DNA of 64,000 bases. It comes from Parabacteroides goldsteinii DSM 19448 = WAL 12034 (GTDB lineage Bacteria; Bacteroidota; Bacteroidia; Bacteroidales; Tannerellaceae). Positions 18,612 to 34,044 of this stretch are shown piece by piece. How positions within the stretch are numbered: the stretch's first letter is position 1; the number at the start of each line of letters is the position of its first letter. The DNA is taken from positions 62,001 to 126,000 of the forward strand of contig NZ_KQ033912.1 of NCBI RefSeq assembly GCF_000969835.1. The letters are read 5' to 3'. The notes below the pieces were generated by a model. It searched no databases. It saw nothing but the letters and a program-made list of their open reading frames with translations, and was not told the origin of the DNA. The position numbers and the translations under genes are program-made.

Positions 18612-21044
18612 CTAAAAATGTATCATTGTCAACTGCACCATAATACTTCCAATGATACCACACAAAGCCCCTGTCGCATTAGCTCTTCGTGTAATCATTC
18701 CGAGCAAGAACAATCCTCCCAGACTGCCCAAAATGATTCCCAGTATTTTATTGAATTCATCCCATAACGAGTTAATATCCCAGGTAGCCATCAGGTAAGC
18801 GAAAAAAATTCCGGCCGCTCCCAATAACATCGTAGCAATCTTAGCCACCTTCAAATCGACCTTGTGGTGATTTATTTTTGAATGAATGTCGGTCACATAG
18901 GCTGTCGCTGCTGAATTCATGCTACTGCTCAATGTTGACATGGCAGCAGCTAAAATCCCGGAAACCAACAGACCGACCACTCCCTGCGGTAACTCGGAAT
19001 AAATATACCAGGGGAGAATCGCATCTCCGTCAGAAACAGTTATGCTGAGTTCTAGCGGGTTGTGTTTATAATAAACATATAATACCGTCCCGACAAAGAA
19101 AAACAGCAATGTGGCAGGAATAGTCAATACGGCATTTGTCAATACACTTTTCCGGGCCTGCTTTTCCGTTCCGGTTGTCATATAACGCTGAACCATCGTT
19201 TGATCGGTACCATAAGTCGTCAGGTTTGTAAAAAATGTAGCAATCAAAACCGTCCATAATGTAGATTGTTTCAAATTGAAATCAAAACTGCCCAGAGAGA
19301 ATTTGTTATCGACAGCGGCTTCACGGACAATACCGGAAAATCCTTCCGGGATATTAAATACCGCCACAATCACAACCAATATCGCCCCTCCCAACAGGAT
19401 CACCACCTGCAAAGCGTCTGTCCAGACCACCGCTTCGATGCCGCCTATCATCGTATAAATCAGACTTAAAACACCCATCAAACCAATACATAAAAATATA
19501 TTGAAACCGGTTATCACATTCAATGCTATTGCAGGAAGATACATGACAATCCCCATTCGACCGACCTGAAACAAAATGAAAGCAAGGCTACAAATTACCC
19601 GGATCAACGAATTAAAACGTAATTCCAAATATTCATACGCTGTCGTAACATTCAGTTTACGATAAAAGGGAATGAACAAATAGAGTATCACCGGTACGAC
19701 CATTAATATACCGACATTAACCAGCATATAACTCCAATCGGAAGCATAGGCTTTTGCCGGTATCGACATAAATGTTATCGCACTCAGACTAGTACCGAAA
19801 ATACTCAATCCCACCGCCCACCAAGGCAATCGTCCCCCTCCTTTAAAATAATCTTCCGTATTTTTCTGCCTCTTTGAAAAATAGTAACCGATCCATGCCA
19901 ACAATGCAAAATAGATACCGATCACTGCAATATTCAAAAATCCCAGCTTTTTCTCAAACGGGATAATTTCCCCTTGTACTATTTCAGGTGTACGGATTCC
20001 CGGTTTCACTTCACCGCTTGTAATATAAAAAGCGTTATCTTTTTTTGCAATACTGGTCGTTACCGGAAGAATATAAGGAGATATTTCTCTTTCTACCAAT
20101 GTATTTGTAATCGTATGATACAGCCTTACCCTGTTATCAAAACCGGGATGATCGGCAGAACCGGGAATCAATTGCGGAACACCTCCAAACAATAGGATAT
20201 GATTAATCCCGGTTGGCAAAGCAGTCCCAGCCATCACAGGAAACTGCCGGTCTAATTTCTTCCAGCTTTTCATCCGCGGATTATAAACGAATCCGTCAGT
20301 CAGCACTTTCACTGTTCCGTCTGTCTGGTAGTTTCTGCCGCTGAACAGATAAAAACATTTATCAAACCCATCACTCTGTACGGCAGATACAGCGTAACCT
20401 CTAGGCTCTCCCGGCCATGTAGCAAGTTCCTGCCATCCTTTTTTCAGGTCTGAAAGATCTAATTTATAAAAATGGCCGGTTGCAGCCTGTTCTTTCATAC
20501 TGACTTGTCCCCCTGCCACATAGATACAGTTATTTAAAAGGGCACCGGTCGCATTTGCCAAAGGGACAGGCAACGCAGGCCAGGATAATGACAATTCTAT
20601 TTGCCGGTTCTTTTTCCGGATAAGAAAAACATCCTTATAACACTGAATGGAATCACATCCACCGATGCACAGCAAACCTCCCGGTAACTCGACAGACAGA
20701 CCATAAGCCCGGGAGTCTGGTAAGACCTCTTCTGCTATTTCCCATGTAGCAGATGAATCTTTTGCATCAATATAATAGATGGTATTCCACCATTCCTTCG
20801 TTCCTCCCTCCCAGGGCATCGCTTCCGGAAAATTAGCACCGCCTGCAATGACTAACGTATTTCCAATAAAGCCGGAAAAAGCACCTGCCACTCCGATATT
20901 GGGTTCATTATCGACAGCAGGAAGGCACAAAGAGTTACTCCATTCTATCTTATCACGGGATAGAGGGGATAATGCCAAAACCTGATGAGAAACAGACAAG
21001 CAAAATAAAAAGAAAATGAGTTTTTTTATAGTATCGTAGATCAT
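18612..21044 (-). CDS. NanM-like mutarotase fused to a sodium:solute symporter
   Basis: 810 residues. After a signal peptide (residues 1-24), residues 25-365 form a kelch-type propeller of the cyclically permuted N-acetylneuraminate mutarotase family (blades such as LVIAGGANFPEAMPWEGG, and GGVPQLIPGS). From about residue 375 comes a sodium:solute symporter (SSS) domain with GYYFSKRQKNTEDYF, GLSIFGTSLSAITFMSIPAK and about 13 membrane helices. The kelch part should sit in the periplasm, converting alpha-Neu5Ac to the beta anomer right at the mouth of the importer. It lies 21 bases after the GntR gene and 148 bases before nanA. The fusion is coherent, with no frameshift. Confidence 0.88.
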   Translation of the reverse strand: MIYDTIKKLIFFLFCLSVSHQVLALSPLSRDKIEWSNSLCLPAVDNEPNIGVAGAFSGFIGNTLVIAGGANFPEAMPWEGGTKEWWNTIYYIDAKDSSATWEIAEEVLPDSRAYGLSVELPGGLLCIGGCDSIQCYKDVFLIRKKNRQIELSLSWPALPVPLANATGALLNNCIYVAGGQVSMKEQAATGHFYKLDLSDLKKGWQELATWPGEPRGYAVSAVQSDGFDKCFYLFSGRNYQTDGTVKVLTDGFVYNPRMKSWKKLDRQFPVMAGTALPTGINHILLFGGVPQLIPGSADHPGFDNRVRLYHTITNTLVEREISPYILPVTTSIAKKDNAFYITSGEVKPGIRTPEIVQGEIIPFEKKLGFLNIAVIGIYFALLAWIGYYFSKRQKNTEDYFKGGGRLPWWAVGLSIFGTSLSAITFMSIPAKAYASDWSYMLVNVGILMVVPVILYLFIPFYRKLNVTTAYEYLELRFNSLIRVICSLAFILFQVGRMGIVMYLPAIALNVITGFNIFLCIGLMGVLSLIYTMIGGIEAVVWTDALQVVILLGGAILVVIVAVFNIPEGFSGIVREAAVDNKFSLGSFDFNLKQSTLWTVLIATFFTNLTTYGTDQTMVQRYMTTGTEKQARKSVLTNAVLTIPATLLFFFVGTVLYVYYKHNPLELSITVSDGDAILPWYIYSELPQGVVGLLVSGILAAAMSTLSSSMNSAATAYVTDIHSKINHHKVDLKVAKIATMLLGAAGIFFAYLMATWDINSLWDEFNKILGIILGSLGGLFLLGMITRRANATGALCGIIGSIMVQLTMIHF

Positions 21045-21065
21045 TTAAAGGTTGTTTTTCAAATG

Positions 21066-21779
21066 CTATACTCTATTATTCATAAATATTTTATACACGG
21101 CAAAATGTTTCTCCAACGCCCTACGGAAACCTTCTTCATCTTTTTTCTTTATAAACTCAAGCAGATCTTCATGAGTCACAATCTCTCCTTTTTCCTTCAT
21201 CTCTATATTGATCGGCTCTAACAGGTCTTTGAATTTATCTTTTACAAAGACCATCACAGGGTGAATAATTCCCTGAAATTCAGAAATAGTTCTATTTCCT
21301 GTTATCTCATAAAGTTTTGCATGAAAAGTAAATTCGCTGACCGGTGCATATTCATTATTTTCAAACATTACTCCCATCTTCACGATCTCTTCAAGCTCGG
21401 CTATATCTTCAGAAGTTATATTTCTGAAAAGGTCACTACAAATACCTATTTCCAAAGCTATTCTAAAACCCAATATATCAAACAAAGATTCTTCACTTAA
21501 AATACGAGGATCGACGACCCGTTTCATTCCTCCCAATATGGAAGGTTCTGTTAAAATCATCCCACGCCGTGTGCGTGATTCAATCATACCCATCATTTTC
21601 AGACGACTGAGTGCCTCTCTCAACACATTACGGGCTACACCTAAAGTAGCCGCCAACTCTAATTCGTTAGGGATCGGATCACCTGTACGCAAATCATTGT
21701 TCTTAAAGTAATTAAGCAACTTATCTTCTACCTGATCCACCAGAGTTACAGATTGATTGTATATTTTTAGTTTGTCCAT
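21066..21779 (-). CDS. GntR/FadR-family (FCD) regulator, NanR-like
   Basis: 237 residues. An N-terminal winged helix (about 10-80, ELAATLGVARNVLREALSRLK) is followed by an all-helical FCD domain (about 90-230) with the Asp/His residues that bind a metal and effector in this family (EFTFHAKLYEITGN; HEDLLEFIKKKD). It is the first gene of the sialic acid operon, so it likely represses the operon and itself until sialic acid or a catabolite binds. A palindrome fitting the FadR-type operator rule lies 36 bases upstream of its start. The effector is inferred from context only. Confidence 0.85.
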   Translation of the reverse strand: MDKLKIYNQSVTLVDQVEDKLLNYFKNNDLRTGDPIPNELELAATLGVARNVLREALSRLKMMGMIESRTRRGMILTEPSILGGMKRVVDPRILSEESLFDILGFRIALEIGICSDLFRNITSEDIAELEEIVKMGVMFENNEYAPVSEFTFHAKLYEITGNRTISEFQGIIHPVMVFVKDKFKDLLEPINIEMKEKGEIVTHEDLLEFIKKKDEEGFRRALEKHFAVYKIFMNNRV

Positions 21780-22693: not shown

Positions 22694-23596
22694 TCAGGAT
22701 TTGCGGTATTCCATCGGGGAAATACCCATATGCTTCTTAAAGAATTTTCCAAATGTAGACTGATCGGAAAAATGCAGCATATCGGCTACCTGTTGCACGG
22801 TCGCCTGCGGGGCTTTCAGCAGGATCTTTGCTTCGACGATCAACGCATCGTCAATCCACTTATTAGCAGATTTTCCGGTCAGTTCCTTTAATATCAAGGA
22901 CAAATATTGCGGAGTTATAAACAGTTTTTCCGCATAGAATGTAACTACATGCTGCTCTTTGCAATGTTCGAACAACAATTGAAGGAATTGCTCGAACAGT
23001 TCCTCCTTTCGGGAAAGGGCAGGCATCAGCAAACCATCCTTCTTGCCCATGAAAATGTTGGCTATTTCCAGCAGAAACCCGACAAACGCATTCTGCATTA
23101 CCTCTTTCTGAAAAAAATGCGTCCGGTTCTTTATTTTACTTCTCAACAATTCTATGTAATTATCTACCAGTTCTGTCTCCTGGGCTTCAAAAGTCGTACA
23201 TGGATTCTTCCTTAGCTGCATATAATTAGCCATCGAAGGACTGCGCTTGGCCGTGTTGCATTCATCCAGAAACTCACGTGAAATAACCAGTAACTTTCCT
23301 TTAAATCCTTTGCTGACCTTGTTAAGCTGTATCGTATGCGTCGGCATAATGATAGTAAAACTATTCGCTCCAATAGTATAAGGAACATAGTCGAGGGCTA
23401 TTTCCGAAGAGCCTTCCAACACCAATACCATCAACAATGCATCCAACCGCATCGGCATCGTATGATCTTGTACATCCTGATCGTCCAATTCACTGTGTCC
23501 GTCAATATCTGCGATCAAAAAAATATCCTGGAAGCTGTCGCGGATGATGATACCTTTATTCAATTCCGCAAACTTTATTAAAGGAAGATTCTCCAT
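22694..23596 (-). CDS. AraC-family transcriptional regulator
   Basis: 300 residues. An N-terminal cupin-like sensor part (about 1-170) precedes the double helix-turn-helix of AraC/XylS regulators (about 200-300): AEKLFITPQYLSLILKELTG for the first helix-turn-helix and VADMLHFSDQSTFGKFFKKHMG for the second. It is divergent from the TetR gene and convergent with the DUF308 gene. A -7 element (23630-23637) is well placed. The ligand and targets are not evident; the neighbouring efflux operon is one candidate target. Confidence 0.88.
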   Translation of the reverse strand: MENLPLIKFAELNKGIIIRDSFQDIFLIADIDGHSELDDQDVQDHTMPMRLDALLMVLVLEGSSEIALDYVPYTIGANSFTIIMPTHTIQLNKVSKGFKGKLLVISREFLDECNTAKRSPSMANYMQLRKNPCTTFEAQETELVDNYIELLRSKIKNRTHFFQKEVMQNAFVGFLLEIANIFMGKKDGLLMPALSRKEELFEQFLQLLFEHCKEQHVVTFYAEKLFITPQYLSLILKELTGKSANKWIDDALIVEAKILLKAPQATVQQVADMLHFSDQSTFGKFFKKHMGISPMEYRKS

Positions 23597-23629: not shown

Positions 23630-23637
23630 CAAAGATA
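23630..23637 (-). promoter_or_regulatory. -7 element for the AraC gene
   Basis: On the minus strand this is TATCTTTG, an exact TAnnTTTG match, with a TTG-containing -33 candidate near 23657-23659 and the start codon 33 bases downstream. Confidence 0.55.
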
Positions 23638-23765
23638 AGTATTGTTTATAATTCCACAAGAGATATGTTTCATTTTTTACCAATATAGACATCTTCTCCA
23701 CCTAAAAGACTTTGTTTTTTAAAAGCATCTTTCGTTTCAGACCAATCCTGTAACAGAATAAACCT

Positions 23766-23795
23766 TTTGAGTTTTCTAAAATAGACAGACCTTTG
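23766..23795 (+). promoter_or_regulatory. Promoter of the TetR-efflux operon
   Basis: TTTG at 23766-23769 and GACCTTTG at 23788-23795 (one mismatch to TAnnTTTG) are separated by 18 bases. The TetR start codon follows 37 bases later. Confidence 0.5.
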
Positions 23796-23832
23796 TCACC
23801 GAGCATAGTACAGATGATTCAAAAAAATATAT

Positions 23833-24450
23833 ATGACAAAGGAACAAGTAATGACGACGGCATTGGATATGTTCTCACAATACGGAATAAAAAGTGTGAG
23901 CATGGACGATATTGCCCGGAATACAGGTATTTCAAAGCGAACGATTTATGAATTCTTCGAAGATAAGGAGACTTTATTGCAGGAAGCGATAAAGTACCAC
24001 AACAACACTATGCGGAAAATACTTAGTGAACTGGAAAAAGGACCGTTTACGGCTCTTGACGTTTTCGTCCTTTTTTACGAAGAATTCATGAAACATCCCC
24101 GCTGGTATATCAAAAGATATTACGATGATCTGAAACGCTATCCCAAAGCAGTGGAACAGGCAGAAAAAGACAAAGCCGATTTTACAACAAGATGCATCAA
24201 GCTCCTGAACCGCGGCGGAAAAGAGGGTGTTTTCCAGAAAGACCTGAATATCGAGATATTGGCTTTGCTGGCAAAAGAACAACTGAAAATGATCCAACCG
24301 TCAAAAGCGTTTGTAAACCATTCGGTGACAGAAGTATTCCAGACGGTACTGTTTACTTTTCTCCGGGGTATCTGCACAGAGAAAGGTATGGTGATTTTAG
24401 AGCGTTACGCCTTGAAACATTCGTACGATATGTTGTCAAGAAAGGAATAA
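23833..24450 (+). CDS. TetR/AcrR-family transcriptional regulator
   Basis: 205 residues. The N-terminal DNA-binding domain is typical (ALDMFSQYGIKSVSMDDIA, then TGISKRTIYEFFEDKETLL, about residues 8-52); the C-terminal ligand domain is not recognisable by sequence. It is followed after 32 bases by a TolC-type gene and then by the membrane-fusion and RND genes, so it is almost surely the local repressor of that pump. The steroid-modifying genes further down the same strand make a bile acid or steroid ligand plausible, but this is inference. Confidence 0.88.
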   Translation: MTKEQVMTTALDMFSQYGIKSVSMDDIARNTGISKRTIYEFFEDKETLLQEAIKYHNNTMRKILSELEKGPFTALDVFVLFYEEFMKHPRWYIKRYYDDLKRYPKAVEQAEKDKADFTTRCIKLLNRGGKEGVFQKDLNIEILALLAKEQLKMIQPSKAFVNHSVTEVFQTVLFTFLRGICTEKGMVILERYALKHSYDMLSRKE

Positions 24451-24482
24451 TACAGAATTATATTCAAATCAAATCTATTTAA

Positions 24483-25892
24483 ATGGAACGAGTATTTATT
24501 AGCAAAAAGAGGATGTGGATGGTTGTGATGTTGCTACCTTCTCTATTCTTTTCCACCGTCAAAGCACAGGAAGTCCTGACGCTCGACCTGGAAAAAGCAC
24601 TGGAGATTGCGCTGAGTGAAAACCCGACCGTGAAAGTCGCAGACAAGGAAATCGAAAAGAAAAAGTATGCACAGAAAGGTTCCTATGCTGCTCTGTTCCC
24701 TCAGGTCAGTTTTACAGCTGACTACACCAGGACATTGAAAAAACAGGTAATGTATATGGACGGTTTCGATATGGGCAGTGGTGAAGGTTCAGGAGAAACA
24801 GGAGGAGCCGGAGGATCAGCCGGTATGGAAAGTATCGATATGAGCAAAGGTATCGAAGTGGGCCGTGATAACAACTGGACTACCGGTTTCAACGCATCCA
24901 TGCCGCTTGTGAACGCAACATTATGGAAAAGCCTCAGCATCTCAGCATTAGATGTGGAATTATCTATCGAACAGGCACGATCTTCCAAAATATCTATGGT
25001 AAATCAGGTTAAGAAGAGCTTCTATGCCGTGTTACTGGCAAACGATTCTTACCGGGTTTTCAAGGAAAGCTACGATAATGCCATGGAAAACTACCTGGAT
25101 ATTAAGAAGAAGTATGAACAGGGAACAGTGGCCGAATATGACCTGATTCGTGCAGACGTTACAGTCAAGAACAGCGAACCGAATATGCTTCAGGCTGAAA
25201 ACTCGCTGGTACTGGCCAAGTGGCAGTTGAAAGCTCTTATGGGAATGGACCTGGAGCAAGAGATCGATTGTACAGGGCAATTAGCCGATTTCGAATCGGT
25301 CCTTTTTGCCGATTATATAGCAACAGACACGACACTGACTGCCAACTCTGATTTGAAACAGATCGATCTGCAAGCACAACAATTGAAGAAAACATTGCTC
25401 ATGCAGAAATTCGATTATCTGCCGACGTTATCACTGACAGGCATGTATCAGTGGAATGCCATGAACAACGATTTCAAATTTAAGAATTACAACTGGACTC
25501 CCTATTCGATCATAGGTGTATCGCTTTCAATTCCGATCTTCTCCGGAGGTAGTAAATATCATACTATCAAACAGACGCAAGTGTCCATCCACCAGATGGA
25601 TCTGCAACGAGAAGACACGAAACGTAACCTGCAATTGGCTGTAAAACAGTATCTGGATAACATGAAAACCTGTGTAAAACAATTCGATGCCGCCCAAAAG
25701 GGAGTCGAACAAGCCAACAGAGGATATAAGATTGCCCAGAAACGTTACGACACCGGCGGCGGTACATTGCTTGAAATGAATGATGCAGAACTGGCGCTGA
25801 CACAGGCGAAATTGAATCTTAACCAGTCCATCTATAATTATATGGTCGCTAAATCGGATATGGAAAAAGTCTTAGGTCAAGAAACGTATTAA
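24483..25892 (+). CDS. TolC-family outer-membrane efflux protein
   Basis: 469 residues with a cleavable signal peptide (VKAQ, residue 29) and the two repeated coiled-coil/beta halves of the OEP family (for example SFYAVLLANDSYRVFKESYD and KQYLDNMKTCVKQFDAAQKG, ending near TLLEMNDAELALTQAKLNL). It forms the outer-membrane tunnel of the tripartite pump with the next two products. A Gly/Ser-rich insert at about residues 98-116 lies where the first extracellular or barrel strand region is expected, which is unusual. No lipobox is present. Confidence 0.9.
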   Translation: MERVFISKKRMWMVVMLLPSLFFSTVKAQEVLTLDLEKALEIALSENPTVKVADKEIEKKKYAQKGSYAALFPQVSFTADYTRTLKKQVMYMDGFDMGSGEGSGETGGAGGSAGMESIDMSKGIEVGRDNNWTTGFNASMPLVNATLWKSLSISALDVELSIEQARSSKISMVNQVKKSFYAVLLANDSYRVFKESYDNAMENYLDIKKKYEQGTVAEYDLIRADVTVKNSEPNMLQAENSLVLAKWQLKALMGMDLEQEIDCTGQLADFESVLFADYIATDTTLTANSDLKQIDLQAQQLKKTLLMQKFDYLPTLSLTGMYQWNAMNNDFKFKNYNWTPYSIIGVSLSIPIFSGGSKYHTIKQTQVSIHQMDLQREDTKRNLQLAVKQYLDNMKTCVKQFDAAQKGVEQANRGYKIAQKRYDTGGGTLLEMNDAELALTQAKLNLNQSIYNYMVAKSDMEKVLGQETY

Positions 25893-25931
25893 GAAACAAG
25901 TATGAGTACAAAAATAAAAACAGTTTACAAT

Positions 25932-26954
25932 ATGAAAACACGTGAAATGCTGAAAGTTATCCCACTTATTACATTAGCCCTGCTGATGTCATGTTCGGGT
26001 GAAAAGAAGGACGCAGCGACAGATACCCATGATGAAAAAGTAAAAGTGAAGATAGAGCAGGTATCCTCTCAGGATGTAGACCAGATAGCAGATTTTACTG
26101 CAACAGTAGAGGCCAATATAAAGAATAATATCGCACCTCAGTCGCCGGTTCGTATTGCGAAGCTGTTTGCCGAAGTTGGCGATCATGTAAAAGAGGGTCA
26201 GGTACTTGTCAAAATGGACGAAACAAACCTGCAACAGGCAAAGATCCAACTGGACAACCAGGAAATCGAGTTCAACCGTATCGACGAACTTTATAAAGTA
26301 GGCGGTGCCTCCAAATCGGCCTGGGATGCCCAGAAAACTCAGTTGGACGTAAGCCGTGCCAGCTATAAGAACTTGCAGGAGAACACACAGCTGTTAAGCC
26401 CGATAAGCGGTATCATCACTGCCCGTAATTATGACAGCGGCGATATGTACAGCGGTGGAGAACCGATCTATACGGTTGAACAAATCCGTCCGGTCAAACT
26501 ATTTGTAAACGTATCCGAAAGCTATTTTACAGATGTAAAAAAAGGAAACGAAGTGGACATCAAACTCGATGTATACGGTGACGAAGTATTCAAAGGCAAA
26601 GTAAGCCTGGTCTATCCGACCATCGACGCTTCAACCCGCACCTTCCCTGTTGAGATCAAGATTGTCAACACTGATGAGCGCGTCCGCCCGGGAATGTTCG
26701 CCCGTGCAACCATGAACTTCGGTACACTCAACCACGTTGTTGCTCCGGATCAGGCGATTGTTAAACAATCCGGATCAGGCGACCGCTACATCTATGTGTA
26801 CAAAAACGGAAAAGTATCCTATCAAAAGATAGAATTGGGACGTCGTATGGGTAACAAATACGAAATCGTATCAGGCGTAGAAAACGGAGACCACGTGGTA
26901 ATTACCGGTCAGAACCGTTTGACTAATGGAATGGAAGTTGAAATTGACAAGTAA
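25932..26954 (+). CDS. RND efflux periplasmic adaptor (membrane-fusion protein), lipoprotein
   Basis: 340 residues from the ATG at 25932, chosen because it gives a lipoprotein signal (ALLMSC); an in-frame ATG 30 bases upstream gives a poor signal. HlyD/AcrA layout: lipoyl-like halves (FAEVGDHVKEGQVLVKMDE and the later LLSPISGIITARNYDSGD), a short helical hairpin between them, a beta-barrel domain (VKLFVNVSESYFTDVKKG) and a membrane-proximal domain. It bridges the RND pump to TolC. It lies 40 bases after the TolC gene and 13 before the RND gene. Confidence 0.9.
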   Translation: MKTREMLKVIPLITLALLMSCSGEKKDAATDTHDEKVKVKIEQVSSQDVDQIADFTATVEANIKNNIAPQSPVRIAKLFAEVGDHVKEGQVLVKMDETNLQQAKIQLDNQEIEFNRIDELYKVGGASKSAWDAQKTQLDVSRASYKNLQENTQLLSPISGIITARNYDSGDMYSGGEPIYTVEQIRPVKLFVNVSESYFTDVKKGNEVDIKLDVYGDEVFKGKVSLVYPTIDASTRTFPVEIKIVNTDERVRPGMFARATMNFGTLNHVVAPDQAIVKQSGSGDRYIYVYKNGKVSYQKIELGRRMGNKYEIVSGVENGDHVVITGQNRLTNGMEVEIDK

Positions 26955-26967
26955 GAAATAAAAGTAT

Positions 26968-29900
26968 ATGAGCTTATATGCAACAGCGGTAAAAAAACCG
27001 GTGACCACCGCCCTCGTGTTCGTGGCTGTGGTGATCATGGGTCTTTTTTCCTTAACCCGATTATCAGTCGACCTGTTCCCGGAGATTGAAACCAACATGA
27101 TCATGGTCATGACGGCCTATCCCGGTGCCAGTGCCAGTGATATTGAAATGAACGTCTCCAAACCGTTGGAGAACGTACTGAATAGTGTGAGTGACCTGAA
27201 ACATATCACTTCGCAATCCAGAGAAAACATCTCTATCGTAACTCTCGAATTCGAATACGGGACCGATATAGACGTGGCAACCAACGACGTTCGCGACAAG
27301 TTGGACGTCGTGGAGTCGTCCCTTCCCGATGATGTGGAAAATCCTATCATCTTCAAGTTCGGTACCGACGACATTCCTATCCTGTTGCTATCCGTGACAG
27401 CGGAGGAAAGTACCAACGCCCTTTACAAGATTCTGGATGATAAAGTATCCAACCCGCTGGCCCGTATCAGCGGCGTAGGTGCCGTATCCATCTCAGGAGC
27501 CCCGGTCCGTGAAGTGCAAGTGTATTGCGATCCTTACAAGTTGGAAGCCTATGGCCTGACAATCGAAGGGATTTCAAATATCATCGCACAGGAAAACCGG
27601 AATACCCCGGGCGGTAGCATCGATATCGGTTCGAATACCTACACACTGCGTGTACAAGGTGAATTCACCGATGCCCGCCAGATGCTCGACCTCGTAGTAG
27701 GAAGCAGCAACGGCAGGAATGTTTATCTGCGCGACGTAGCGGACGTAAAAGACTACGTGGAAGAACGTGCACAGGAAACCTTCAACAACGGCGGCCGCGG
27801 CGGTATGATCGTTATCCAGAAACAGTCGGGCGCCAACTCGGTGAACATCGCCAAAAAGGTACACGATAAGTTACCCGAAATACAGGCCAGCCTGCCTTCC
27901 GACGTAAAATTAGGTGTGATCGTGGATACATCCACCAACATTTTGAACACGATCGACAGTTTGAAAGAAACGATCATGATCACCTTCATTGTCGTAATGT
28001 TCGTGGTATTCATCTTCCTCGGACGCTGGAGAGCGACGTTCATCATTATCCTGACAATCCCGATTTCTCTGATAGCCGCCTTCGCTTATCTGCTGGCTTC
28101 AGGAAATACGCTGAATATTATCTCACTGAGTTCGCTTTCTATCGCCATCGGTATGGTGGTGGATGATGCGATCGTTGTATTAGAAAACGTAACGACCCAT
28201 ATCGAGCGGGGTAGCAAGCCGAAGCAGGCTGCCGTACATGCGACCAATGAGGTAGCCATCTCCGTTATCGCTTCTACGCTGACCATGCTGGCCGTGTTCC
28301 TGCCGTTGACGATGGTAACCGGTATGGCAGGTATCCTGTTCAAACAGTTGGGTTGGATCGTTAGTATCATTATGATCGTATCGACAGTAGGCGCTTTGAC
28401 GCTGACTCCGATGCTTTGTTCACAGTTGCTGCGCCTCGATCCGAAGAAAGGTCGTTTGTACGTGCTATTCTTCACTCCGATCGAGAAAGCATTGAATGCG
28501 CTCGATGTAGCTTACGCACGCTTTCTGAGTTGGGCCGTACGCCATCGTAAAACAGTCATCTTCGGTGCCATGCTGATATTCGCAGGGAGCATGATGCTGG
28601 TTCCGACCGTCAAAACGGAGTTTTTCCCGACACAGGACAACGGCCGCGTCGGTATCACGATCGAACTGCCGATCGGTACCCGTCAGGAAATCACCCGCGA
28701 TCTGGCTTTGCGCATCGACAAACAGTTCCGCGAAAAGTATCCGGAAATAGATGTATTGAACTTCAGCGAAGGACAGGCTGACACCGACAATACCTTCGCA
28801 CAACTTAGCGACAACGGTTCGCACATCATCGAAATGAATGTCGGGTTAAGCAGCGTGGGAGACCGCGAACGCGGATTGATCGAGATTTGCGACCTGATGC
28901 GTAAAGACCTGGCTCAATATTCGGAAATCAAGGAATATAAAGTACTGGCCGGTGGTTCTTCCGGCGGTGCAGGTGGCGAAACGACCGTCGATGTGGAAAT
29001 CTATGGTTTCGACTTCGAAAAGACCGATATCGTAGCTGCCGAACTGGCCCGCCGCCTCGAAACCCTGAAAGGTTGTTCGCAGGTGAACATCAGTCGTAAA
29101 GATTATATCCCGGAATATCAGGTAGACTTCGACCGCGAAAAGCTGGCGATGAACGGCCTGAATGTAACTACGGCCTCCACGTATCTTCGTAACCGTATCA
29201 ACGGCTCCACCGCTTCAAAATATCGTGAAGATGGCGACGAATATGATATAAAGGTACGTTATGCCCCGGAATTCCGCCAGTCGGTAGAAGATATCGAAAA
29301 TATCATCATCTACAACAGTGCCGGACAAGGCGTTCGTATCCGCGACGTGGGTAAAGTTGTAGAACGTATGACCCCGCCGACTATCGAGCGTAAGAACCGC
29401 GAACGTATCATTACCGTTTCGGCCGTTGTAGCCCAGGGTGCCGCATTGAGTGACCTGGTAGAACAAACCCGTGCCGAACTGAAAAAGATGGATATTCCGT
29501 CTGAAATAAGCTGGCAGTTGGGTGGTACTTTCGAAGACCAGCAGGATACATTCACCGATCTGGGTATATTGATGGTATTGATCATCATACTCGTATTCAT
29601 CGTGATGGCCGCCCAGTTCGAGTCGCTGACCGACCCGTTTGTGATTATGTTCTCTATCCCGTTCGCCTTTACCGGGGTTGTTCTGGGATTGTCTATCACA
29701 CAAACGCCGCTGGGTGTAATGGCATTGATCGGTGTGATCATGTTGATGGGTATCGTGGTAAAGAACGGTATCGTGCTGATCGACTACACGATCCTTTGCC
29801 GCGAACGTGGAATGAGTATCCTGACAGCTGCTGTTACAGCCGGTAAATCCCGTCTCCGTCCGGTATTGATGACCACACTGACCACTGTGCTGGGTATGAT

Positions 29901-30093
29901 CCCGATGGCGGTCGGTACAGGTGAAGGTTCCGAAATGTGGCGTTCGATGGGTATGACGGTTGCCTGGGGGCTTGCCGTTTCGACCCTGATCACGCTGGTT
30001 ATCGTGCCGGTTGTCTATTGTACATTTGCCGGGAACGGGGTGAAACGCCGCCGCCGCAAAATTGCAAAACTGAACCAGCTGGAACAATTATAA
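26968..30093 (+). CDS. RND-family efflux permease (AcrB/HAE1-like)
   Basis: 1041 residues, normal for an AcrB-type trimeric inner-membrane pump. It has the N-terminal helix, two large periplasmic loops and twelve transmembrane segments. The proton-relay Asp pair is in SIAIGMVVDDAIVVLEN of the fourth helix, and the second half has GIVVKNGIVLIDYTI and RLRPVLMTTLTTVLGM. The sequence groups with hydrophobic/amphiphilic efflux pumps rather than metal pumps, since I see no metal-type signature, though sequence alone cannot settle this. It is third in the TetR operon. After it comes a 125-base gap with the 23-bp palindrome array. Confidence 0.93.
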   Translation: MSLYATAVKKPVTTALVFVAVVIMGLFSLTRLSVDLFPEIETNMIMVMTAYPGASASDIEMNVSKPLENVLNSVSDLKHITSQSRENISIVTLEFEYGTDIDVATNDVRDKLDVVESSLPDDVENPIIFKFGTDDIPILLLSVTAEESTNALYKILDDKVSNPLARISGVGAVSISGAPVREVQVYCDPYKLEAYGLTIEGISNIIAQENRNTPGGSIDIGSNTYTLRVQGEFTDARQMLDLVVGSSNGRNVYLRDVADVKDYVEERAQETFNNGGRGGMIVIQKQSGANSVNIAKKVHDKLPEIQASLPSDVKLGVIVDTSTNILNTIDSLKETIMITFIVVMFVVFIFLGRWRATFIIILTIPISLIAAFAYLLASGNTLNIISLSSLSIAIGMVVDDAIVVLENVTTHIERGSKPKQAAVHATNEVAISVIASTLTMLAVFLPLTMVTGMAGILFKQLGWIVSIIMIVSTVGALTLTPMLCSQLLRLDPKKGRLYVLFFTPIEKALNALDVAYARFLSWAVRHRKTVIFGAMLIFAGSMMLVPTVKTEFFPTQDNGRVGITIELPIGTRQEITRDLALRIDKQFREKYPEIDVLNFSEGQADTDNTFAQLSDNGSHIIEMNVGLSSVGDRERGLIEICDLMRKDLAQYSEIKEYKVLAGGSSGGAGGETTVDVEIYGFDFEKTDIVAAELARRLETLKGCSQVNISRKDYIPEYQVDFDREKLAMNGLNVTTASTYLRNRINGSTASKYREDGDEYDIKVRYAPEFRQSVEDIENIIIYNSAGQGVRIRDVGKVVERMTPPTIERKNRERIITVSAVVAQGAALSDLVEQTRAELKKMDIPSEISWQLGGTFEDQQDTFTDLGILMVLIIILVFIVMAAQFESLTDPFVIMFSIPFAFTGVVLGLSITQTPLGVMALIGVIMLMGIVVKNGIVLIDYTILCRERGMSILTAAVTAGKSRLRPVLMTTLTTVLGMIPMAVGTGEGSEMWRSMGMTVAWGLAVSTLITLVIVPVVYCTFAGNGVKRRRRKIAKLNQLEQL

Positions 30094-30117
30094 AACAGAC
30101 AAACCGGGAAGTGGGAC

Positions 30118-30186
30118 TTCCCAGTACCAGGAAGAAGGTATTCCCAGCATTGGGAACGATCTCTTCCCAGTACCGGGAACCACCCG
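30118..30186. repeat. Array of three 16-bp palindromes with 23-bp period
   Basis: Units start at 30118, 30141 and 30164. Each has TTCCCAG, a short centre, and GGGAA or AGGAA, followed by a 7-base spacer. The middle unit is TTCCCAGCATTGGGAA. A partial TTCCGG follows at 30188 and a lone CCGGGAA half at 30104. It lies between the RND and PII-like genes and could fold as three hairpins in RNA or bind a protein. Confidence 0.85.
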
Positions 30187-30218
30187 CTTCCGGATATAAC
30201 ATTAAAATATAAAGAACA

Positions 30219-30512
30219 ATGAAAGCTATATTCATATCATTCAATCAGGCCTATTACGAAATGATCCTCAGTATCATGGACCGTAATAATATCCGGGGGT
30301 TCACCTACTGGGAAGAAGTGCAGGGACGTGGCAGCAAGAACGGCGAGCCCCATTACGGCAGCCACGCCTGGCCTACCCTCAATTCTGCCATACTGGCAAT
30401 GGTCCCGGACGAAAAGGTAGACCCTTTCCTTGACCTGCTGCATAAGATGGATTTACAGACAGAAGCCCAGGGATTACGTGCATTCGTATGGAATATCGAG
30501 AAATCAATTTGA
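30219..30512 (+). CDS. PII-like small protein downstream of the RND pump
   Basis: 97 residues. The layout resembles the PII/CutA ferredoxin-like fold: MKAIFISFNQAYYEMILSIMD for the first strand and helix, a T-loop-like region with GRGSKNG at 36-42, then AILAMVPDEKVDPFLDLLHKM as the second strand and helix, matching the VPD..VD pattern of GlnB. The T-loop lacks the uridylylated Tyr context of classical GlnB. PII-like proteins of the PII-NG and DUF3240 type are known beside RND efflux genes, which fits. It is six bases before the STM3941-like gene. The fold is my reading, not a tested match. Confidence 0.6.
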   Translation: MKAIFISFNQAYYEMILSIMDRNNIRGFTYWEEVQGRGSKNGEPHYGSHAWPTLNSAILAMVPDEKVDPFLDLLHKMDLQTEAQGLRAFVWNIEKSI

Positions 30513-30518
30513 TAAGGT

Positions 30519-31076
30519 ATGGAAACACCTTCTGTAACCACATTCAAATTGAGCAGGCATAAAAAGAGAGGACTGTTTCTGACAACAATCCTCTCTGCCC
30601 TGATCGGTACCGGGGCCTTGTACGCAGCCAACGGACTCCAATACGGTGAAGGCCGTTTTGTTTTCATCGCTATCGGAGTATTCGCGTTGCTCACCACTTT
30701 CTTCTGTTTCATCAGTTATTCCTTTCTGACCCGGGAAAGTTTCAAAGCCATTTATATCTCTGAAGAAGGGATTAACGACATTTCGACCGGTAACCGGATC
30801 GGAACAATTTTATGGAAAGATGTTGATAGTATCAAAATAATGGACGATATTAGCAACCTGAAACGTAAATATATCGTACTGAAGGTCAGGAACCCGAACG
30901 AATATATTGACAGGGAGCCCACACGTAGTAAGAAGCGTTCGCTGGAACTGCGGCTTCAATACTACGGATCACCTATTTGTATTTCCAGCCGTGCGCTGGA
31001 TTGCACTTTTGAGGAATTAAAACAAGCCGTATTCGACAGATACGACCTCTATAAAGCCTCACATAAAGAGGCATAG
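30519..31076 (+). CDS. STM3941-family membrane protein
   Basis: 185 residues with two transmembrane helices (about 22-38 and 46-70) followed by a soluble PH-like domain (KAIYISEEGINDISTGNR, then ILWKDVDSIKIMDDIS). This matches the STM3941 family, whose function is unknown. It sits between the PII-like gene and the steroid 5-alpha-reductase gene, with gaps of 6 and 14 bases, and so belongs to the same transcription unit. Confidence 0.7.
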   Translation: METPSVTTFKLSRHKKRGLFLTTILSALIGTGALYAANGLQYGEGRFVFIAIGVFALLTTFFCFISYSFLTRESFKAIYISEEGINDISTGNRIGTILWKDVDSIKIMDDISNLKRKYIVLKVRNPNEYIDREPTRSKKRSLELRLQYYGSPICISSRALDCTFEELKQAVFDRYDLYKASHKEA

Positions 31077-31090
31077 TATATCAAGAAGAA

Positions 31091-31852
31091 ATGACACAGG
31101 AAGATTTTTCAATATTACTTATCATAATGGCGGTCATCGCCGCCATTGTTTTTGTTACCCTTTATTTCGTAGAAGCCGGCTACGGCATGTTATTCAACCA
31201 AAAATGGGGCGTGCCCATCCCCAACAAAATAGCCTGGGTATGTATGGAAGCCCCGGTCTTCATCGTAATGCTCGTCCTGTGGGCAGGATCGGAACGGCAA
31301 TTCGAAACAGTTCCCCTACTCTTTTTCCTGTTCTTCGAACTGCATTATTTCCAACGGGCCTTCATATTTCCACTGCTTATCAAAGGGAAAAGCAAGATGC
31401 CCGCCGGTATTATGACGATGGGGATCGTATTCAACCTGCTGAATGGCTATATACAAGGTATGTGGATATTCTACCTCTCCCCCGAAAATATGTATTCTAT
31501 CCAATGGCTGACTACACCGCAGTTCATCACCGGAACAATCCTGTTCTTTGCCGGCATGTGGATCAACTGGCAATCGGATTACATCGTCCGCCATCTCCGT
31601 AAACCGGGTGATACCAACCACTACCTGCCCAAAGGAGGTATGTTCAACTACGTTACTTCCGCCAACTATTTCGGCGAACTGGTGGAATGGTGTGGTTTCG
31701 CCATCCTGACCTGGAGTGCCAGCGGCGCCCTGTTTGCCTGGTGGACATTCGCCAACCTCGTACCCCGTGCCAATACGATCTGGCATAAATATAAAGCCAT
31801 GTTCGGGAAAGAAGTCGGCAGCCGGAAACGGATCATCCCATTCATTTACTGA
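31091..31852 (+). CDS. Steroid 5-alpha-reductase family protein (5AR)
   Basis: 253 residues with about six to seven transmembrane helices. The C-terminal half closely resembles vertebrate steroid 5-alpha-reductase: LPKGGMFNYVTSANYFGE and LVEWCGFA (residues 179-203), and a final RIIPFIY. In the human enzymes the NYFGE..EW region binds NADPH and substrate, and these residues (Asn192, Tyr193, Glu196, Glu199) are kept. The enzyme would reduce a delta-4 bond of 3-oxo steroids or 3-oxo bile acids to the 5-alpha (allo) form with NADPH. The next two genes match the 5-beta-reductase and 3-beta-HSDH reported with 5AR in gut Bacteroidales. Confidence 0.87.
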   Translation: MTQEDFSILLIIMAVIAAIVFVTLYFVEAGYGMLFNQKWGVPIPNKIAWVCMEAPVFIVMLVLWAGSERQFETVPLLFFLFFELHYFQRAFIFPLLIKGKSKMPAGIMTMGIVFNLLNGYIQGMWIFYLSPENMYSIQWLTTPQFITGTILFFAGMWINWQSDYIVRHLRKPGDTNHYLPKGGMFNYVTSANYFGELVEWCGFAILTWSASGALFAWWTFANLVPRANTIWHKYKAMFGKEVGSRKRIIPFIY

Positions 31853-31853
31853 T

Positions 31854-31861
31854 TATCTTTG
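31854..31861 (+). promoter_or_regulatory. Possible internal promoter before the 5-beta-reductase gene
   Basis: TATCTTTG matches TAnnTTTG exactly, just after the 5AR stop and 55 bases before the start codon at 31917. No clear -33 element is seen. Confidence 0.45.
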
Positions 31862-31916
31862 CATACTGATTATATAACTATACAACGAACAGATCATTGA
31901 AAACAGACTAAACATT

Positions 31917-33143
31917 ATGAACAAAGAATCTGTACTATTTACTCCGGCCACCATCGGCCCGCTAACACTCAGAAACCGTACGATACGGGCGGCAGCATTC
32001 GAAAGCATGTGCCCCGGCAACGCCCCGTCGGAAATGCTTTACAACTACCATACCTCCGTTGCTGTCGGAGGTATAGGTATGACAACCCTTGCTTATGCAG
32101 CCGTTACACAAAGCGGACTTTCCTTTGAGCGCCAGCTATGGCTTCGTCCGGAGATCATTCCCGGCATCAAAAAGATAACAGATGCCATCCATAAAGAAGG
32201 AGCAGCAGCCTCCATACAGATCGGACATTGCGGGAATATGTCCCATAAAAACATTTGCGGATGCACACCGATATCCGCTTCAACCGGATTCAACCTCTAC
32301 TCGCCCACTTTTGTCAGGGGGATGAAACAATCCGAAATCGTGGCCATGTCGAAAGCCTTCGGACAGGCTGTCCACCTGGCACGCGAAGCCGGAATGGATG
32401 CCGTAGAAGTACATGCCGGACACGGTTACCTGATCAGTCAGTTCCTTTCCCCTTACACCAACCACCGGAAAGACGAATATGGCGGAAGCCTCGAAAACCG
32501 TATGCGTTTCATGAAAATGTGCATGGAAGAAGTTATGAAAGCAGCCGGTTCGGATATGGCAGTCCTGGTTAAAATGAATATGCGCGACGGTTTTAAAGGC
32601 GGTATGGAACTGGATGAAACACTGGAAGTCGCCCGCACACTGCAAGACGAATGCGGAGTACATGCACTCATCCTCAGTGGCGGATTTGTCAGCCGTGCTC
32701 CCATGTACGTGATGCGCGGAGCTATGCCTATCCGCACGATGACCCATTATATGCCTTTCGGATGGTTGCCTATAGGAGTCAGGATGGCCGGCCGTATGAT
32801 GATACCGACCGAACCGTTCAAGGAGGCTTATTTCCTCGAAGACGCGCTGAAGTTCCGTGCCGCCCTGAAAATGCCCCTTGTCTATGTGGGTGGCCTCATC
32901 TCCCGCGAAAAGATCGACGAAGTACTCGGTCACGGTTTCGAATTTGTCAGTATGGCACGCGCCCTACTGAACGATCCGGCTTTTGTCAACCATATGAAAG
33001 AGAACGAACAGGCACGCTGCGACTGCGGACACAGCAACTACTGCATCGCCCGTATGTATTCGCTTGAAATGGCCTGCCACAAACATATGCAGAATCTACC
33101 GAAAAGTATTATCAAAGAAATAGAAGAACTGGAATATAAATAA
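31917..33143 (+). CDS. OYE-type flavin oxidoreductase, likely steroid 5-beta-reductase (5BR)
   Basis: 408 residues of the old yellow enzyme family: FTPATIGPLTLRNRTIRAA at the start, IQIGHCGN near 100, and EVHAGHGYLISQFLSP and TNHRKDEYGGSLENRMRF around 163-198, which bind FMN and substrate. It lacks the C-terminal iron-sulphur/FAD/NADH domains of BaiCD and BaiH (about 650 residues), so it must take electrons from elsewhere or bind NAD(P)H itself. A Cys-rich end (CDCGHSNYCIARMYS) remains and could be a relic or cluster site. The placement after 5AR and before an SDR suggests action on 3-oxo-delta-4 bile acids. The stop overlaps the next start (TAATG). Confidence 0.83.
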   Translation: MNKESVLFTPATIGPLTLRNRTIRAAAFESMCPGNAPSEMLYNYHTSVAVGGIGMTTLAYAAVTQSGLSFERQLWLRPEIIPGIKKITDAIHKEGAAASIQIGHCGNMSHKNICGCTPISASTGFNLYSPTFVRGMKQSEIVAMSKAFGQAVHLAREAGMDAVEVHAGHGYLISQFLSPYTNHRKDEYGGSLENRMRFMKMCMEEVMKAAGSDMAVLVKMNMRDGFKGGMELDETLEVARTLQDECGVHALILSGGFVSRAPMYVMRGAMPIRTMTHYMPFGWLPIGVRMAGRMMIPTEPFKEAYFLEDALKFRAALKMPLVYVGGLISREKIDEVLGHGFEFVSMARALLNDPAFVNHMKENEQARCDCGHSNYCIARMYSLEMACHKHMQNLPKSIIKEIEELEYK

Positions 33144-34027
33144 TGGAAAAAGGAATAGCCATTATCACCGGTGCAGACGGCGGAATGGGCCGGGAAATAA
33201 CGCTGGCACTCGCAAAAGAGGGCTTTCAGATCATCATGGCCTGTAAAGAGCCGGATAAAGCCCGTACTGTCTGCGATAAGATCAAAAAAGAAAGCGGGAA
33301 CGAGCGGATCGAAATACGACAGATAGACTTATCCTCACTGGCTTCGGTACGCTTATTTGCCGATAAACTATTAGCGGAAGGTCGCCCCGTCAGCCGGCTC
33401 ATGAACAATGCTGGAGTCCTGACGACAAATATCCGCCAGACAGCGGACGGCCTGGAAACGATCGTAAGTGTTAATTACGTAGGTCCTTACCTCCTTACCC
33501 GCCTGCTTCTCCCCCTGATGCAGCGGGGAAGCCGTATCGTTAATACCGTATCGTGCACATATGCCATCGGACGGATAGAATCCGACTTTTTCAGCAAAGG
33601 GAAAAACGGACGCTTCGCACGGATACCGGTATATGGAAATACAAAACTGGCCCTTTTACTCTTTACACGTGAGTTGGCAGAAAGAGTAAAAGAAAAAGGT
33701 ATCACCGTCAATGCTGCCGACCCGGGAATTGTCAGTACCAATATGATCACGATGCATGCCTGGTTCGACCCGCTGACGGACATCCTGTTCCGCCCGTTCA
33801 TCAAAACAGCGGCACAGGGAGCAGCTACTGCCATCTACCTGGCGCAATCGCCAGAAATAGACGGTAAAAGCGGAGGCTGCTACGCCAACTGCAAAGAGAA
33901 AAAGCTCCCGGAACGTATACTCCACCACCCTCTGCAACGCCGGCTTTGGGACGATACGGAAGCCCTGCTTCTCTCCCGTAACCTGCTGAACAGAAAAAAT
34001 ATCCCGGAGACAGTTGGAACGTATTGA
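33143..34027 (+). CDS. Short-chain dehydrogenase, likely 3-beta-hydroxysteroid dehydrogenase
   Basis: 294 residues of the SDR superfamily. The cofactor motif TGADGGMG is near residue 8, NNAG near residue 89, a catalytic Ser region NTVSCTY near 132, and the YxxxK pair at Tyr164/Lys168 (YGNTK). It begins on the last base of the 5BR stop codon. In the gut pathway from 3-oxo-lithocholic acid to isoallolithocholic acid, 5AR, 5BR and a 3-beta-HSDH are clustered, so this gene most likely reduces the 3-oxo group. Position specificity cannot be read from the sequence; the general fold resembles retinol dehydrogenase-like SDRs. Confidence 0.82.
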   Translation: MEKGIAIITGADGGMGREITLALAKEGFQIIMACKEPDKARTVCDKIKKESGNERIEIRQIDLSSLASVRLFADKLLAEGRPVSRLMNNAGVLTTNIRQTADGLETIVSVNYVGPYLLTRLLLPLMQRGSRIVNTVSCTYAIGRIESDFFSKGKNGRFARIPVYGNTKLALLLFTRELAERVKEKGITVNAADPGIVSTNMITMHAWFDPLTDILFRPFIKTAAQGAATAIYLAQSPEIDGKSGGCYANCKEKKLPERILHHPLQRRLWDDTEALLLSRNLLNRKNIPETVGTY

Positions 34028-34036
34028 TAAAAAAAT

Positions 34037-34044
34037 TACCTTTG
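34037..34044 (+). promoter_or_regulatory. -7 element for rplY
   Basis: TACCTTTG matches TAnnTTTG exactly, 81 bases upstream of the ATG at 34125, leaving a leader that could carry control. Confidence 0.5.

Follow-up and report, generated by a model that had tools for sequence, protein, structure and literature searches.

Does a run of genes that leads from an RND efflux pump straight into A-ring reductases serve a single bile-acid or steroid response, or are its two halves neighbors by descent only? The question is raised by a locus of Parabacteroides goldsteinii DSM 19448 that lies in the window analyzed here (the whole stretch of 64,000 nucleotides from contig NZ_KQ033912.1, positions 62,001 to 126,000, to which all coordinates refer). 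Nine complete open reading frames, all on the + strand between 23833 and 34027, follow each other in the order TetR, TolC, adaptor, RND permease, PII-like protein, STM3941-like protein, steroid 5-alpha-reductase (5AR), OYE-type flavoenzyme (OYE) and SDR (Table 1), and the identities assigned with Pfam and NCBIfam profiles uphold the nine one-strand genes that a first-pass annotation had listed. The PG0541-type RND efflux operon set is complete, the genes for RND permease, adaptor, TolC and PG0541-family protein being consecutive, and the OYE-type and SDR genes adjoin 5AR, as in the Bacteroidales isoallo-bile-acid cluster. We tentatively favor, at chances we would put close to even, the reading that this is an old efflux operon with a reductase cassette at its 3′ end, in which pump and reductases take part in one bile-acid/steroid response. 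An integrated bile-acid function of this kind is plausible.

The pump-reductase arrangement is real and widespread in Parabacteroides and, because many genomes of the genus repeat all or most of the order, it is more than chance. Of 554 confirmed 5AR candidates, the 80 best were searched for neighboring pump genes at E<=1e-5 over at least a quarter of the query; RND, adaptor and TolC adjoin 5AR in eight Parabacteroides-titled loci, and PII does so in a ninth, short locus. Judged by 5AR, the named species nearest to the window are P. faecis, P. goldsteinii and P. gordonii, at 89-91% identity. No pump gene was found at the 71 loci in this set of 80 that are not titled Parabacteroides, 59 of which have more than 5 kb upstream, and a pump beside 5AR as a Bacteroidales-wide feature is rejected. 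Within the genus (38 genomes) 5AR occurs in 20, the pump in 20 and both in eleven; ten of the eleven hold them adjacent, and in G026 they are split by contig ends, with PII adjoining 5AR on the second contig (L006). A survey of the family Tannerellaceae (123 genomes; RND at E<=1e-250, OYE at E<=1e-100) placed RND in 85 genomes, OYE in 37 and both in 22, of which 19 have the two adjacent on one strand, G026 has them over two contigs, and G002 and G221 carry them unlinked; adjacency of RND with OYE and of pump with 5AR was judged from match coordinates. The 19 include G013, with both genes broken, and G212, whose OYE is interrupted by a stop and whose TetR is in two pieces. The pump-reductase synteny that the first-pass annotation had set as its test thus holds in these 19 of 22 genomes, with one more split, and does not extend outside the genus or to the rest of it.

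In G013 (L151) the RND match stops at residue 611, OYE starts at residue 186 and PII is missing between them, and the two genes look broken by one deletion. G002 carries 5AR with the pump (L003, titled P. gordonii) and OYE-SDR-L25 on a different contig (L172), a rearrangement between 5AR and OYE. G006, which also has the linked copy, carries a second AraC-TetR-TolC-adaptor-RND-PII-STM3941 block (L141) that has an OmpR-type regulator behind it and lacks reductases.

From TetR to SDR the junctions of the window measure 32, 9, 13, 125, 6, 14, 64 and -1 bases; the earlier description of gaps of mostly 6-14 bases fits four of the eight and had passed over the gaps of 125 and 64. Spacing in relatives is -11 to +2 bases between an OmpR/PhoB-type regulator and 5AR (11 loci, one of them pump-less), 2 bases between PII and 5AR (one locus, listed twice), 18-34 bases between PII and OYE (six loci), 7 to 57 bases between 5AR and OYE (13 of 15) and -1 to 10 bases, with a median of -1, between OYE and SDR (16 loci). 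Scanning the + strand for terminator-like sites gave no match in the gaps of the unit, nor between SDR and L25. Given the overlaps and small gaps in relatives, co-transcription from TetR to SDR is likely on this comparative evidence. L25-Pth-S4 follow 3′ of the unit, with 69-213 bases between SDR and L25 in 13 of 14 loci and 1372 in the other, and L25 is likely to have its own promoter, which would form the downstream border.

In relatives the pump locus is framed by a divergent AraC gene and by downstream L25-Pth-S4, and the cassette sits between the pump end and L25; in seven reductase-free pump loci PII, STM3941 or the OmpR-type regulator stands directly 5′ of L25. L25 was not seen in three of the ten OYE-less pump loci fetched (L170, L175, L177). 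Among reductase loci without the pump, L163, L166, L167 and L171 keep L25 with no AraC seen. Loci L143-L150, which lack 5AR, read pump-PII-(OmpR-type regulator)-OYE-SDR′, and nine pump-bearing genomes without 5AR keep OYE (one broken) together with a different SDR. Every pump-locus OYE included in the OYE tree, plus that of L169 (OYE elsewhere), falls into one clade of 28 rows (support 98/89), all from the family, and on the RND tree the cassette-bearing rows L009 and L168 sit among cassette-less rows. The simplest reading of these sequences would be that the cassette was inserted once, in an ancestor, on the 5′ side of L25, and that descendants repeatedly lost 5AR alone, the entire cassette or the pump; because many genomes are drafts, absence outside contiguous loci is uncertain. 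In Bacteroides, RND was found in 85 of 149 genomes and PII in 88 of 158, and the pump-PII pair is common. In three Bacteroides pump loci that were inspected, the pump orthologue is preceded by a TetR-like gene (34-36% identity) and followed by unrelated genes, none of them reductases. The window permease, which has relatives of 65-67% identity in three Bacteroides genomes, lies below the curated cut-off of NCBIfam RND_permease_2 (797.7 vs 1250 bits).

A second, more distant type of 5AR-OYE-SDR cassette (5AR at 59-61%) is present in G017, G022, G032 and G042 (L159-L162), placed in the same genus by the tool, at a different site without pump or L25. In L011, L053 and L077 (Odoribacter and Alistipes/Rikenellaceae titles) OYE is followed by two SDRs in tandem, the SDR′ of 5AR-less Parabacteroides and an SDR of window type, and there may have been an ancestral four-gene cassette. 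Upstream of position 10001 in L016, L024, L025, L044 and others, aconitase, isocitrate dehydrogenase and citrate synthase are followed by 5AR-OYE-SDR on the same strand, these three names being our reading of the sequences.

Both halves have known counterparts. For the pump, NCBIfam names the PG0541 family ‘transporter-associated’, and the gene order in Porphyromonas gingivalis is presumably PG0538-0541, an RND pump followed by a PG0541-family protein, as here. This RND pump is XepCAB (PMC4790292; this and the other papers are cited from excerpts); the window differs in having TetR in front and the STM3941-like protein and reductases behind. Bacteroides thetaiotaomicron has RND pumps of the same order that respond to bile, among them BT2792-2795 and BT1965-1967 (PMC10994844, PMC11078008, PMC12596196); seven RND clusters of this species are bile-induced (PMC11078008), PMC10434189 lists BT1964 as a TetR/AcrR regulator, and BT2792-2795 have AhpC, AhpF and ribokinase as neighbors (PMC10434189, PMC12596196). 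In B. fragilis the efflux operon PTOS_003611-3614 is singled out in work on the response to deoxycholate and is important for bile fitness (PMC10197588). In a neighbor comparison with BT2792-2795, motifs of AhpC, AhpF and ribokinase were absent from the 40 kb upstream of the pump in four Bacteroides genomes. The window also differs from the three Bacteroides pump loci in its reductases, which none of them carries behind the pump. For the cassette, the isoallolithocholate cluster was reportedly described by Sato et al. in 2021. It joins 5AR, an OYE-type 5-beta-reductase (5BR) and a 3-beta-hydroxysteroid dehydrogenase (3-beta-HSDH) in Parabacteroides and others, the same three gene types as here, which sustains the match drawn in the first-pass annotation; the window differs in its link to a pump operon, of which the review excerpts make no mention (PMC10382948). 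The view that the pump link is less described holds for pump and reductases, no title or abstract opening among the matches listed describing it in a search that lay outside the primary 5AR-cluster papers; the combination of pump and PII-like protein is already known, as well as common in Bacteroides.

The window 5AR aligns with the solved SRD5A enzymes PDB 7c83 and 7bw1, and its E53 and Y86, which we take to be E57 and Y91 of SRD5A2, are invariant (94 of 94 rows), leaving the SRD5A-type catalytic Glu/Tyr pair intact. Y171 and Q175 of OYE (93 of 93) and S137, Y164 and K168 of SDR (42 of 42) are invariant too, rows with less than 93% query coverage or 50% identity (40% for SDR) having been dropped first. 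All 93 rows share Cys 105, 376 and 387 of OYE, and 92 of the 93 share Cys 370; these cysteines may form a variant iron-sulphur or active-site set. The window OYE bears a likeness to BaiCD and to the steroid 5-beta-reductase family, which belong to the OYE family and reduce 3-oxo-delta4 steroids (PMC12238238). It differs from BaiCD in being shorter (408 residues against a 642-position profile), in matching mainly over residues 7-264 and in its active-site neighbors, and it fails the NCBIfam BaiCD cut-off (176.8 vs 825 bits). Aligned by eye, its G170 and Q175 match N166 and S171 of ci2350, positions held in bile-acid enzymes by Tyr or Ser and by Glu, respectively (PMC12238238). The tie to allo-bile acids draws on published work, in which 5AR clusters with an OYE-type gene and 3-beta-HSDH, and disruption of 5AR in P. 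merdae leaves no derivatives of allolithocholic acid (PMC10382948).

Between RND and PII the 125-nt gap forms a single long hairpin, which none of 200 shuffles equaled in stability and which gave z -6.7 in a separate fold run. Gaps of at least 30 nt at this junction reach z <= -4 in 19 of 24 cases (18 of 23 in a repeat with fewer shuffles and the window left out), and an Odoribacter locus has a hairpin as well; none is present in relatives with gaps below 30 nt or in three Bacteroides loci, where the gaps measure 11-18 nt. By eye the hairpin sequences are mostly dissimilar, L002 and L154 being alike and L144 and L145 alike, and no clear U-tract follows the stems. Strong hairpins also occur between SDR and L25 (5 of 9) and between Pth and S4 (3 of 6), so the one between RND and PII is strong, not unique. 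None were found between TetR and TolC (0 of 22, with gaps mostly below 60 nt), SDR′ and L25 (0 of 8), L25 and Pth (0 of 6), PII and OYE (0 of 3), or where the OmpR-type regulator, STM3941 or PII precedes L25 (0 of 7). Our guess is that the hairpin acts as a partial expression divider or mRNA stabilizer; a duller alternative would be a spot that tolerates palindromic insertions.

The TetR gene does stand first in the unit, as the first-pass annotation had it when proposing TetR as the regulator, but that account omitted the divergent AraC gene. In most relatives the unit also contains an OmpR-type regulator, which the window lacks. With AraC and this regulator to consider, and TetR not found in the linked loci L147-L149 and L155, TetR as sole candidate regulator is rejected. 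An OmpR/PhoB-type regulator lies 5′ of 5AR in 10 of the 14 pump-plus-5AR loci compared, the window included (that of L002 has Response_reg and Trans_reg_C domains), and is missing in the window, P. faecis (L001), L008 and L168. AraC adjoins the reductases without a pump in L157, L158, L164 and L165, and adjoins the pump at loci without reductases; AraC and, in most relatives, the OmpR-type regulator are further candidate regulators. Bacteroidales promoters follow the consensus TAnnTTTG, and the -7 box assigned to AraC is kept or nearly kept in an alignment of six loci. Position 23766 is not a gene start; it lands on the TTTTG of a promoter-like stretch, TetR itself starting at 23833. Upstream of this conserved element lie direct repeats of TTTCnTTTnnnACCAAT, starting 165 and 103 bases upstream of TetR, which may represent an activator site ahead of the promoter. 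Each of the 30 pump-bearing AraC loci listed, of which one is counted twice, has at least one copy with at most two mismatches; by the same criterion one of four pump-less loci has a copy, and none of four pump loci of Bacteroides and Odoribacter does. The 64-kb window holds seven equally good matches on both strands, the two repeats included. As AraC sites the repeats are weakened, being missing in three of the four pump-less loci that retain AraC.

On the reading we favor, an old Tannerellaceae operon of TetR, TolC, adaptor, RND and PG0541 protein, often with an STM3941-like protein and an OmpR-type regulator, would have gained the A-ring reductase cassette of Bacteroidales (5AR, OYE, SDR) as a 3′ extension immediately 5′ of L25, and many Parabacteroides would transcribe the cassette together with the pump, as the last part of one message. 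In this model, amphiphilic steroids such as bile acids would relieve TetR repression and/or act via AraC, the pump would lower the steroid or bile-acid level in the cell, and 5AR, OYE and SDR would isomerize the A/B ring of those 3-oxo bile acids (or steroid hormones) that enter. The hairpin probably separates the pump mRNA from the PII-reductase tail in amount or stability.

Several observations weigh against this reading. It is weakened because about half of the reductase-bearing genomes are unlinked, the pump-linked share being 20 of 37 for family OYE genomes (19 adjacent plus the split G026) and 11 of 20 for genus 5AR genomes, and because TetR is missing in four linked loci. Seven of the ten OYE-less pump loci (L174, L176, L178-L182) run pump-PII-(STM3941)-(OmpR-type regulator)-L25-Pth-S4; conversely, AraC leads to reductases and L25 without a pump in L157, L158 and L164, and L165 has AraC and reductases with no pump and no L25 seen. 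These four pump-less loci stand apart on the OYE tree, and the genus rows L159 and L161 cluster with Bacteroides OYEs outside the pump-locus clade. Co-occurrence of pump and reductase shows no significant excess in the family (22 with both; odds ratio 0.54, p 0.14) or in the genus (19 with both; odds ratio 5.4, p 0.17). Within the unit of the window, uncoupling could occur at the hairpin gap or at the 64-base gap, and in a relative 5AR and OYE lie 268 bases apart on one contig (L008 = L156, listed twice). The 64-base gap holds a TATCTTTG box at 31854, with no TTG in the 36 bases upstream and a similar box in one of seven relatives shown (L154), and we considered whether OYE might have its own promoter there. 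What survives of the ‘sense, modify and export’ unit of the first-pass annotation is the synteny and the overlaps in relatives; as one integrated unit it is not supported.

The occurrence of each half at the locus without the other, and the lack of co-occurrence excess, are what would be expected if the cassette had landed behind the pump by chance and kept its own control, the pump being a general multidrug exporter with no tie to A-ring reduction. In keeping with this, the Bacteroides cassette follows a different operon: in 15 of the 80 loci (best 80 of 554), all Bacteroides-titled, a gene for citrate synthase or isocitrate dehydrogenase ends <=0.9 kb 5′ of 5AR. Such a history is possible but doubtful, as the overlaps and spacings of 2-34 bases are held in many relatives and RND and OYE are adjacent in most genomes that have both. 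The cassette could instead act on other sterols or lipids, or as a general ene-reductase, with bile acids incidental. The pairing of OYE with a different SDR and no 5AR in L143-L150 would suit this, as would the BaiCD score and the residues at the G170 and Q175 positions (PMC12238238), but the effect of 5AR disruption in P. merdae (PMC10382948) and the intact Glu/Tyr pair argue against it, and we regard it as distinctly improbable. The favored reading, of a pump operon with a reductase tail in one response, might also be taken further, to a dedicated operon for the export and remodeling of host bile acids or steroids. Here a steroid-responsive switch (TetR and/or AraC), the RND pump, a ratio-tuning hairpin, and a PII-like sensor with the A-ring reductases would work together, flat 5-alpha products being made and pumped out together, and the hairpin would be a control element fixed in position, not in sequence, that arose repeatedly. 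We consider this unlikely.

Table 1. Features of the pump-reductase locus and its borders in the window.
Feature	Position	Strand	Support
AraC-family regulator, divergent from operon	22694..23596	-	HTH_18 65.8 bits
Bacteroidales-type -7 box TATCTTTG for AraC, TTG 22 bases upstream	23630..23637	-	pattern scan
Direct repeat copy 1, TTTCnTTTnnnACCAAT	23668..23684	+	
Direct repeat copy 2, 62 bases 3′ of copy 1	23730..23746	+	
Conserved promoter-like element (TTTTG ... GACCTTTG) upstream of TetR	23765..23795	+	one mismatch to the TAnnTTTG consensus
TetR-family regulator, 205 aa	23833..24450	+	TetR_N 48.4 bits
TolC-like outer-membrane channel	24483..25892	+	OEP 205.9 bits
Periplasmic adaptor	25902..26954	+	RND_mfp TIGR01730 226.7 bits, cut-off 94.9
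RND permease, 1041 aa	26968..30093	+	ACR_tran 850.7 bits, cut-off 28
Intercistronic hairpin, 125 nt, no U-tract	30094..30218	+	minimum free energy -49.5 kcal/mol, z -7.8
PII-like PG0541-family protein (PG0541_fam)	30219..30512	+	NF045581 123.7 bits, cut-off 45
STM3941-family protein (STM3941_fam)	30519..31076	+	NF041635 130.2 bits, cut-off 40
Steroid 5-alpha-reductase (5AR)	31091..31852	+	Steroid_dh PF02544 143.2 bits, cut-off 22.6
Short OYE-type flavoenzyme, 408 aa, presumed 5-beta-reductase	31917..33143	+	Oxidored_FMN PF00724 185.1 bits
SDR, presumed 3-beta-HSDH	33143..34027	+	adh_short PF00106 115.2 bits
-7 box TACCTTTG, TTG 23 bases upstream, likely L25 promoter	34037..34044	+	pattern scan for the consensus

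Elsewhere in the window, positions 18612-21779 (- strand) encode a fusion of a NanM-like epimerase domain and a sodium:solute symporter. A GntR/FCD regulator lies upstream of it, and the locus is of sialic-acid type.

Isoallolithocholic acid, a product of Parabacteroides and other Bacteroidota, is inhibitory to Gram-positive pathogens in the micromolar range (PMC10382948). The recurrent pump-reductase operon makes enzyme control and product release in isoallolithocholate makers directly testable, and could help explain differences between strains in which 5AR has been lost, the pump has been lost, or both are broken.

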